From assembly GCA_018653485.1 (NCBI GenBank), contig JABHZE010000006.1, positions 62,001-126,000 of the forward strand: a DNA stretch of 64,000 nucleotides. Direction: 5' to 3'. The notes under the pieces are model-generated. The model saw only the letters and a list, made by a program, of their open reading frames with translations, was not told the origin of the DNA and ran no database searches. The translations under genes were made by a program, and so were the position numbers. This DNA is from an archaeon. Lineage in GTDB: Archaea > Nanobdellota > Nanobdellia > Pacearchaeales > GW2011-AR1. Shown piece after piece: positions 34,583-62,171 of this stretch (positions within the stretch are counted from its first letter, which is position 1; every line of letters begins with the position of its first letter).

Positions 34583-34655
34583 AGCCCCATGGTGCAGTGG
34601 TCAAGCATTGATGCCTTTGGAGCATTAGACCCCGGTTCGAATCCGGGTGGGGCTA
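34583..34655 (+). tRNA. tRNA-Gln(TTG)
   Basis: A 73-nt cloverleaf. Acceptor AGCCCCA pairs with TGGGGCT, D-stem GTGC/GCAT, anticodon stem GATGC/GCATT with loop CTTTGGA (anticodon TTG), T-arm CCCGG-TTCGAAT-CCGGG, discriminator A. No CCA is encoded. A TATA-like tttataaatc lies about 50 bp upstream and attaatgtatt closer. It is followed by partial copies of its own 3' end. Confidence 0.95.
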
Positions 34656-34857
34656 TTAATTTTCTAAGGAGGATGAGAACCGGATGGTTCGACGAACATT
34701 TTCACTTTAAGGTTTAGAAGGGTTTAGAAAGGGGAAAGTGGAAATGAGAGCTAGGGTGGGGCTATTGGCCGAATTCGAACGTCCTTAAAAATTCTTAAGG
34801 AATTTTTGGGAACTACAAAATCCATAAAAGATTTTGAAGTAATCCGGGTGGGGCTAT
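34656..34857 (+). repeat. Two tandem hairpin cassettes, each ending in a partial tRNA-Gln 3' end
   Basis: Unit 1 (34656-34766) contains CATTTTCACTTT pairing with AAAGTGGAAATG and ends in GGGTGGGGCTATT, copied from the tRNA end plus two bases. Unit 2 (34767-34857) has a CCTTAA/TTAAGG stem, then CTACAAAATC pairing with GATTTTGAAG (one mismatch), and ends in AATCCGGGTGGGGCTAT, 17 bp identical to the tRNA. The second hairpin resembles the CTACAAAAAC stem at tRNA-Cys and tRNA-Leu. No open frame is seen. Confidence 0.75.
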
Positions 34858-51551: not shown

Positions 51552-51590
51552 TGAAGAATGCTAAAAATTCGAAAATAAATTTTTATTCTA

Positions 51591-51707
51591 TGCGGGAACA
51601 GGATTTGAACATGTGAAAGTTCGTAAGAACTGAACAGCCAGAGAATTTAAAAAATTCTCTGGACATACAAAAACTTGTTTGTTGTTTTTGTAGGGTGAAA
51701 ATCTTAA
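51591..51707 (-). repeat. Hairpin cassette downstream of tRNA-Leu, ending in a tRNA 3' copy
   Basis: Read on the minus strand from the tRNA end: TCACCCTACAAAAAC, a TACAAAAAC/GTTTTTGTA stem, then TCCAGAGAATT pairing with AATTCTCTGG, a short AGTTC/GAACT stem, and finally TTCAAATCCTGTTCCCGCA. The last part copies the 3' end of the adjacent tRNA-Leu with one C missing. The first two hairpins match those downstream of tRNA-Cys. There is no open frame. Confidence 0.8.
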
Positions 51708-51791
51708 TGCGGGGAACAGGATTTGAACCCATGTAAGCACTAAGCTACTTGGCCCTAAACCAAGCCCGTTTGACCACTCCGGCATCCCCGC
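51708..51791 (-). tRNA. tRNA-Leu(TAG)
   Basis: An 84-nt class II tRNA on the minus strand. Acceptor GCGGGGA pairs with TCCCCGC through the full 7 bp, anticodon stem CTTGG/CCAAG with loop TTTAGGG (anticodon TAG), long variable arm TAGCTTAGTGCTTA, T-loop TTCAAAT, discriminator A. A TATA-like box lies about 27 bp upstream (about 51818-51830 on the minus strand). Confidence 0.95.
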
Positions 51792-55704: not shown

Positions 55705-56607
55705 CTAAACCTCAATCTTCATAAGATCTTTAGCTATTTGGATTTTGGGAAATGTTTTCTTTGCTTCGTCTAATATTAATTTTTCTTTGAATTCATATCT
55801 TTGAGAGATATGGGTTAAGATTGCTTGTTTTACTTTACCTTGTTTTGCTAATTCTGCTGCTTGTTTTGCAGTTAGATGGTTATATTCTTTTGCTAATTTT
55901 TCTCCTTGCCCTGAATTATCTAAGAATGTTGATTCGAAAATAGCTAGGTCTGAGTTTTCTGCAAGTTTTTTTGCATTAGCACAAACTTTAGTATCAAAAA
56001 TAAAAGCTACTTTTTTTCCTTTTTGTAAGTAGGTGTAATCTTTTGATTTTAATGTTTTATTATTTATCTTAATGTCTTTTCCTTGTATAAGTTTTTTCAA
56101 ATCTGGATGGTTTTTTATATTTAATTTTTGAATTTTGTCCTTATGGATTCTTAATTTATCTTTTTGATGAAAAATATAGCCATTAGTAGGGGTTTCGTGA
56201 GATAATGCTAATGATTTAATTTCAAAGTCTCTTGTTTTAAGAAAAGTTCCTGAAACTTCTTCGACTTCATAGTTTATTCTTTTATGAGGGATAAATGTTT
56301 TGAAAATTTCTTTTATTAATGTTTTAGTTCCTTTTGGGCCGTAGATAAATAATTTTTTTTGATAATCATTTAATGCTAATGTTTGAAATAATCCTGGAAG
56401 TCCAAATATGTGGTCTCCATGTAAATGTGTTAATAATATTCTTGTTATTTTGCAAGGATTTACTTTTGCTTTTCTAAATTGTCTTTGAGTCCCTTCTCCG
56501 CAATCAATTAATATATTTTCTTCATTGAATTTTAGATAAATTGCAGAGGTATTCCTAGATATGGTTGGTATTGCTCCACTTGTTCCTAGGAATGTTATTT
56601 CTATCAT
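55705..56607 (-). CDS. rnz: Ribonuclease Z (tRNA 3' endonuclease)
   Basis: A 300-aa metallo-beta-lactamase-fold endonuclease that cuts pre-tRNA just after the discriminator base. It reads ITFLGTSGAIPTISRNTSA (residues 4-22), ILIDCGEGTQRQF, the zinc motif LLTHLHGDHIFGLPG (58-72), and later FDTKVCANAKKLAENSDLAIFESTF and HLTAKQAAELAKQGKVKQ. The length is that of the short form. It is relevant here because tRNA-Cys, -Leu and -Gln have unusual hairpin trailers that RNase Z would have to process. Confidence 0.95.
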   Translation of the reverse strand: MIEITFLGTSGAIPTISRNTSAIYLKFNEENILIDCGEGTQRQFRKAKVNPCKITRILLTHLHGDHIFGLPGLFQTLALNDYQKKLFIYGPKGTKTLIKEIFKTFIPHKRINYEVEEVSGTFLKTRDFEIKSLALSHETPTNGYIFHQKDKLRIHKDKIQKLNIKNHPDLKKLIQGKDIKINNKTLKSKDYTYLQKGKKVAFIFDTKVCANAKKLAENSDLAIFESTFLDNSGQGEKLAKEYNHLTAKQAAELAKQGKVKQAILTHISQRYEFKEKLILDEAKKTFPKIQIAKDLMKIEV

Positions 56608-61896: not shown

Positions 61897-61967
61897 GCGC
61901 GGATCGCATAGTGGTTTTGCACGGGACTGCAGATCCTGTTACGGGGGTTCGATTCCCCCTCCGCGCT
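61897..61967 (+). tRNA. tRNA-Cys(GCA)
   Basis: A 71-nt cloverleaf. Acceptor GCGCGGA/TCCGCGC, anticodon stem CGGGA/TCCTG with loop CTGCAGA (anticodon GCA), T-arm GGGGG-TTCGATT-CCCCC, discriminator T as expected for Cys. It lies 52 bp after tRNA-Arg and is followed directly by a hairpin cassette. Confidence 0.95.
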
Positions 61968-62094
61968 TTCAAATGGGAATCTCACCCTACAAAAACTATA
62001 GAAGTTTTTGTAGATCCAGAGTATTCTACAAATACTCTGGCCCTTTAATTCTTTTGTTGGTATTGAATTAAAGTCTTCGATTCCCCCTCCGCGC
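61968..62094 (+). repeat. Hairpin cassette downstream of tRNA-Cys, ending in a tRNA 3' copy
   Basis: TCACCCTACAAAAAC begins the first of three perfect stems: CTACAAAAAC/GTTTTTGTAG (61987-62013), CCAGAGTATT/AATACTCTGG (62016-62040) and CTTTAATTC/GAATTAAAG (62043-62073). The cassette ends with TTCGATTCCCCCTCCGCGC (62076-62094), 19 bp identical to the tRNA-Cys 3' end. The first two stems are shared with the tRNA-Leu cassette. Confidence 0.85.
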
Positions 62095-62171
62095 CTTTTT
62101 ATTTTTATTCTCTCTTTCGTACTTGATATTACCAATAATCTTAAATAATCATTATAATTATTAAACTAATA

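Follow-up and report, generated by a model that had tools for sequence, protein, structure and literature searches.

In the window, the 64,000-nt stretch of an archaeal genome analysed here, two related cassettes of three hairpins each are located directly 3' of the tRNA-Cys and tRNA-Leu genes, and each closes with the 3' end of its own tRNA (Table 1). The tRNA-Gln gene is the third cassette-bearing locus of the window, being followed by two further units (34656-34856). An initial annotation of the window had described the same hairpin series behind tRNA-Cys and tRNA-Leu; this description is sound, but it lacked the tRNA-Gln locus, with its two different units, as well as the antisense T-arm in the 5' part of the cassettes.

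Table 1. Host tRNA genes, TLR-type units and their parts in the window
Feature	Position	Strand	Remark
tRNA-Gln (TTG), host gene	34583-34655	+	
First TLR unit behind tRNA-Gln	34656-34764	+	family B
antisense GGATGAGAACCGG	34671-34683	+	
sense GGTTCGA	34686-34692	+	
hairpin		+	
3'-end copy	34754-34764	+	11 nt
Second, different TLR unit behind tRNA-Gln	34765-34856	+	family C, in tandem
antisense CCGAATTCGAAC	34769-34780	+	
two hairpins		+	
3'-end copy	34841-34856	+	16 nt
tRNA-Leu (TAG), host gene	51708-51791	-	ARAGORN and Rfam
TLR-type element behind tRNA-Leu	51590-51707	-	family A
antisense-like GATTTTCACCC	51703-51693	-	
three hairpins	51692-51666, 51662-51638, 51631-51618	-	
3'-end copy	51610-51590	-	
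tRNA-Cys (GCA), host gene	61897-61967	+	ARAGORN and Rfam
TLR-type element behind tRNA-Cys	61968-62095	+	family A
antisense T-arm-like GGGAATCTCACCC	61975-61987	+	perfect antisense, GGGAATCGAACCC
hairpin 1	61987-62013	+	11-bp stem
hairpin 2	62016-62040	+	CCAGAG stem, 10 bp
hairpin 3	62043-62073	+	CTTTAATTC/GAATTAAAG
tRNA-Cys 3'-end copy	62076-62094	+	19 nt, T-loop to acceptor

The relationship of the Cys and Leu cassettes is evident from the 15-mer TCACCCTACAAAAAC, which occurs in the window in exactly two copies, one in the Cys cassette (61982-61996, plus strand) and one in the Leu cassette (51684-51698, minus strand). Elsewhere in the 930-kb genome the 15-mer is matched with two mismatches at best, by which chance sharing of this sequence was ruled out. 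The perfect stems 1 and 2 are of 11 and 10 bp in the Cys cassette and of 9 and 11 bp in the Leu cassette; the compensatory change in stem 2, reported initially, was seen directly as T-A to A-T. Folding of both cassettes surpassed that of all 200 shuffled sequences (z of -6.9 for Cys and -4.3 for Leu), and in the minimum-energy fold of the Cys cassette the 5' sequence GGGAATC pairs with GATTCCC of the tRNA 3' copy. As had been supposed, the cassettes leave no room for a gene, and the Rfam scan of the window gave nothing above threshold except tRNA. Plain terminator hairpins unrelated to tRNA, which the initial annotation had considered as a competing reading, were ruled out from the own-tRNA copies and the antisense, both of which follow the tRNA. 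A guide RNA of C/D or H/ACA type was likewise rejected, inspection by eye finding D and C boxes absent around the antisense. The stretch between the Leu and Cys cassettes also contains, probably by coincidence, a gene for an RNase Z-like protein (metallo-beta-lactamase motif HLHGDH; 55705-56607, minus strand).

After analysis of the whole assembly, an exact copy of 10-20 nt of the gene's own 3' end was found within about 200 nt downstream of 13 of the 32 tRNA genes, together with weaker remnants, recognised by eye, at three more (Gly-TCC, Ala and Asp). These units fall into at least three sequence families: family A behind Cys, Leu, Leu and Gly, family B behind Gln, Leu-CAA, Ser, Glu, Asp and probably Lys, and family C behind Gln and Gln. 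Hairpin 1 of family A shows a two-sided change (TACAAAAAC/GTTTTTGTA versus TACAACTC/GAGTTGTA), and the Leu-AAG and Gly-GCC units add further two-sided stem changes. Since the longest stretch common to units of this genome is 19 nt, the copies are old, and recent movement in the window's genome is unsupported. Behind tRNA-Gly (GCC) (L017, G000:C2) there is a fractional repeat: after one full unit an identical second one begins, but breaks off after 46 nt.

Likeness to the tRNA-linked repeats of Escherichia coli

The tRNA-linked repeats (TLRs) of E. coli have been known since 1978, and to our knowledge neither function nor origin has been established for them in over 45 years. The initial annotation knew no such element by name; the TLR ('RtT' in RefSeq and Rfam) has the same anatomy. 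By definition, the last 18-19 bp of a TLR are the same as the 3'-terminal ones of the tRNA or rRNA gene before it, and 22 TLRs are known in E. coli, with no established function and none known for those in tRNA operons (PMC8144298). The cassettes of the window are situated immediately downstream of a tRNA gene in the same orientation. The identity of the 3' end extends over exactly 19 nt in the Cys cassette, the length given initially, and over 10-20 nt in the other units of this genome; for the Leu cassette the copy of tRNA-Leu stands, but its length, given as 18-19 bp, is 17 identical nt followed by CGCA, one C having dropped out. The cassettes are thus of the TLR kind by the published definition, with cores that are not homologous to those of E. 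coli. No match to RtT of Rfam (RF00391) was detected in the window or in the loci L017, L018, L130 and L132, core homology being outside the published definition. Also outside this definition are the antisense T-arm and the sense T-stem piece in the 5' part, which are present in the cassettes and weak in both Leu units.

The E. coli TLRs (the tyrT/tyrV repeats RtT, rttR; rrA/rrB/rrF) share with the cassettes the site directly behind a tRNA gene (in E. coli also 5S), the copy of the 3' end of that gene, the hairpin core, the tandem units, and an imperfect antisense T-arm followed by a sense piece of T-stem and T-loop (GGGGAAGGATGAGAAGCTTCGACCAAGGTTCGA behind tyrV). In detail, the tyrT/tyrV units of K-12 carry 19-nt copies, the imperfect antisense GGGGAAGGATGAGAAGCTTCGA, the sense piece AAGGTTCGA and hairpins, while the copy in the rrnB unit is of 18 nt and runs 5 nt past 5S. 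One antisense T-loop variant, GATGAGAA, is common to an E. coli TLR and a tRNA-Gln unit of the window. In contrast, the cores are unrelated in sequence, with AT-rich hairpins in the archaeon and CGTTGC..GCAACGGCCCGAAGGG in E. coli, and the archaeal host tRNAs, unlike the hosts of E. coli TLRs, lack an encoded CCA. In the archaeon, surveyed at its tRNA genes, no unit was noticed behind 5S. Core families differ between genomes. In E. coli the first tyrT unit is polymorphic, occurring in 1922 of 5426 genomes, and a comparison of strains yielded an exact empty site: the tyrT region of SK1144 has the intergenic flank of K-12 without the unit. No description of an archaeal TLR was found in the open-access literature searched, and as far as this literature shows, the units described here form the first archaeal set.

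Occurrence, shared cores and geometry of the duplicate

In seven genomes of the same genus, units were found at other tRNAs and the orthologous tRNAs were mostly empty, which agrees with the lineage-specific presence expected initially. For the order-wide search, the pattern was set as a T-loop followed by an antisense T-loop within 13-43 nt, and it was detected in 101 of 200 genomes, as compared with 4 genomes for the reversed control. A phylum-wide sample gave the pattern in 18 of 148 genomes versus about a dozen for the control, and with this count so close to the control the signal is much stronger in the order. The inspected loci with a called tRNA nearly all consisted of tRNA gene, unit and 3'-end copy. 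When a stricter pattern was applied to all GTDB species, the matches listed included many bacterial phyla and two entries labelled Nanoarchaeota, and the same anatomy was observed behind Ser, Lys, Ala, Arg, Leu and other tRNAs of many bacterial phyla. Convergent tRNA pairs were rejected as the cause of the pattern, for they account for only 4 of the 107 tRNA-associated matches listed. Behind tRNA-Lys of Lachnospiraceae type (L185, L203, L205, L289 and L294) there are one to three tandem units of 60 nt, nearly all antisense plus sense T-arm and acceptor end with almost no core. Three viral contigs carry the pattern; an autonomous viral version was rejected after inspection of two of them, L304 and L305 (IMG/VR), which have tRNA-Gly and an antisense T-arm but no 3'-end copy.

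Tyrosine integrases were detected in 155 of 180 genomes of the order, and the pattern is present in seven genomes without a detectable tyrosine recombinase (incomplete MAGs; the samples differ slightly). With respect to reverse transcriptase, 63 of the 101 pattern-bearing genomes have no detectable RVT_1 match or are outside the sample examined for it (incomplete MAGs). Within the limits of incomplete MAGs and slightly differing samples, neither enzyme is obligatory in the sampled genomes. The window's own genome holds one reverse-transcriptase domain (RVT_1; G000:C5:1368-2033).

The relative G082 carries units made of the same modules, identical over 22-59 nt, behind eight tRNA genes (L312-L320), the hosts being Leu, Leu, Lys, Lys, two Ser, one with a Gln-like 3' end (Thr according to ARAGORN) and one unassigned. 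The longest stretch shared by two of these units is 100 nt, and the median longest shared stretch is 29 nt inside G082 as against 7 nt between G082 and the window's genome. The modules are concatenated in varying order like cassettes, most of them ending in TGAGGCC, and the local C56 and tRNA tail follow directly after the terminal GAGGCC. Despite identical inner modules, each unit ends in the 3' end of its own host tRNA, by which slow co-evolution of the ends was ruled out for G082. This arrangement indicates that the inner part spreads within the genome and that the 3' end is rebuilt locally, in good agreement with the initial proposal of a homologous inserted part and a terminal part copied from the local tRNA. 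At one Leu locus of G082 (L316), spacer and antisense are present while core and copy are missing, the state that a deletion between repeats would leave.

The 5' part of the units is an antisense T-arm of the host tRNA, often followed by a sense piece of T-stem and T-loop. The order-wide and GTDB-wide loci were found via the antisense, so that the antisense score over 132 elements is partly circular; the test within the window's own genome is free of that circularity. In this test, with 32 tRNAs, the units scored higher against their own tRNA than against others for both the antisense and the sense T-arm, and none of 20,000 permutations reached the observed sum; the preference is strong in Lys, Glu, Ser and Gln units and weak in two Leu units. 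In some bacteria (L222 and L274) the local acceptor and T-stem are matched over 16-17 nt by the antisense block, which is unexpected for a block carried in and requires some re-templating or later adaptation. The antisense of two Ser units of G082 (L313 and L319) fits another T-loop or tRNA type, and the L319 unit has 60 nt, antisense included, in common with a Lys unit of G082. These units contradict a purely local re-templating of the antisense, and indicate that it travels with the core and that only the 3' copy is local.

Perfect copies in the fetched loci number 104, of which 30 begin exactly at C56; T55 is never the starting base, and 5 copies begin upstream of it. This edge was measured on the copy and not on the antisense. 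At the other end, the repeat extends at least 5 nt past the tRNA in 31% of the 132 elements, versus 0.9% in shuffled pairs, and the length of the duplication varies from about 11 to 35 nt. The duplicate has therefore one sharp edge in the T-loop and one loose edge downstream, and these edges resemble what would be left if the site were opened with a stagger and the overhang then copied.

Proposed mode of insertion and rival readings

The anatomy is a 5' antisense T-arm, one or more hairpin modules, and a duplicate of the tRNA 3' end from C56 to the gene end or a few bases past it. Units of this build are spread over the genome, the order and bacteria, are polymorphic in E. coli, grow in tandem and by modules, and share cores that have local 3' ends. 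From these comparisons, each cassette is probably an archaeal TLR in the sense of a mobile repeat that encodes no protein, measures about 60-240 bp and came to its place behind a tRNA gene by insertion. The insertion would duplicate its target: one strand would be opened at T55/C56, the opposite one at the tRNA 3' end or beyond it, and after entry of the core the overhang would be copied. The antisense T-arm would move with the core, and its probable role is to select tRNA T-arms, or to hold them, through base pairing. The host tRNA would stay intact, since its tail remains in place and the extra copy ends up on the far side of the core. For the TLR, a named but unexplained kind of element, the comparison gives a specific and testable mechanism. 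The almost coreless 60-nt Lys units of Lachnospiraceae count against a mobile repeat.

The same units might be made by replication template switching, in which the growing strand would turn back on itself at the T-arm hairpin, synthesise the antisense T-arm, and then return to the T-arm to recopy the tRNA end and its flank; no mobile element or special enzyme would be needed, and the cores would be spread later by ectopic gene conversion. This accounts for the antisense block, for a duplicate running into the flank, and for the coreless minimal units and tandem arrays (L185, L205 and L289), and it fits the wide distribution over prokaryotes of all kinds, for which none of the enzymes tested proved obligatory. 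By itself, however, it does not explain how eight tRNA genes of G082 came to be followed by identical modules, up to 100 nt long, with a fixed GAGGCC before C56, and the donor-type antisense in L313 and L319 is not copied locally. We regard template switching as unlikely on the whole, and as a serious rival for the coreless Lachnospiraceae units. Selection for structure is the essence of another reading, a host RNA module (small RNA or aid to tRNA maturation) released with the tRNA transcript. The stems of family A are kept by two-sided changes, the units lie downstream of a tRNA promoter, and related rrn units of E. coli yield small RNAs that bind Hfq and CsrA in vitro; TLRs in tRNA operons, however, are without known function (PMC8144298). 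The upkeep of hairpins may also reflect mobility, and the patchy presence between sister species and between E. coli strains, together with the use of different, unrelated cores for the same job, makes a host module quite improbable.

The integrase-type insertion favoured in the initial annotation turned out to be unsupported, and we hold it to be the least probable of these readings. Mini-integrative elements would recombine in the T-loop, with an attP that carries the replacement tRNA end, and the crossover-like edge at C56, the inverted T-arm pair reminiscent of folded attP sites and the integrases in most genomes of the order speak for it. Conservative recombination by a tyrosine recombinase would, however, join the donor's 3' end to the new tRNA body, so that the body would receive the donor's tail, whereas identical cores of G082 were seen with local ends only, both 3'-end copies being local. 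The cassettes contain no gene, the seven genomes mentioned above (incomplete MAGs) carry the pattern without a detectable tyrosine recombinase, and in E. coli the same kind of repeat is found also behind 5S rRNA. With the tRNA-targeting integrative elements of tyrosine integrases, the cassettes share the T-loop edge and the repeated tRNA 3' end, but they are gene-less and of about 60-240 bp, with one core behind many tRNAs and local ends on both sides. In the annotation of islands behind tRNA genes, the 3'-end copies of TLRs can be mistaken for integrase att sites.

Casposons and other Cas1-type insertions at tRNA 3' ends likewise duplicate a target stretch that takes in the tRNA 3' end, and leave the tRNA intact. 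The cassettes differ from these in that no conserved terminal inverted repeats other than tRNA-derived ones were seen and in that the duplication varies in length. REP/PATE and other hairpin MITEs resemble the cassettes in being short, gene-less, hairpin-based and spread within a genome, but they are intergenic and lack the copy of the host RNA gene end that the cassettes carry.

The TLRs of this archaeon (DPANN-like) and of many bacterial phyla turn a curiosity of E. coli into a general and testable question of mobile elements, since they have one anatomy, a duplicate with a sharp edge at C56, and cores built of modules that pass from one tRNA host to another. Tentatively, TLRs may even form one cross-domain class of protein-less mobile elements, guided by antisense to T-arms, inserting at C56, duplicating the tRNA tail and growing by the addition of hairpin modules, in which case tRNA genes of many bacteria and archaea would be the homes of an unrecognised transposition system; this extension we consider possible though doubtful. 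Away from tRNA genes, the window's genome contains two intergenic elements of 175 bp, 94% identical to each other (L130, G000:C3:198411; L132, G000:C6:64723), which hold the hairpin pair of family A (AGAGAATT..AATTCTCT and TTCAAC..GTTGAA) within GC stems and are possibly another home or a source of the family-A core.
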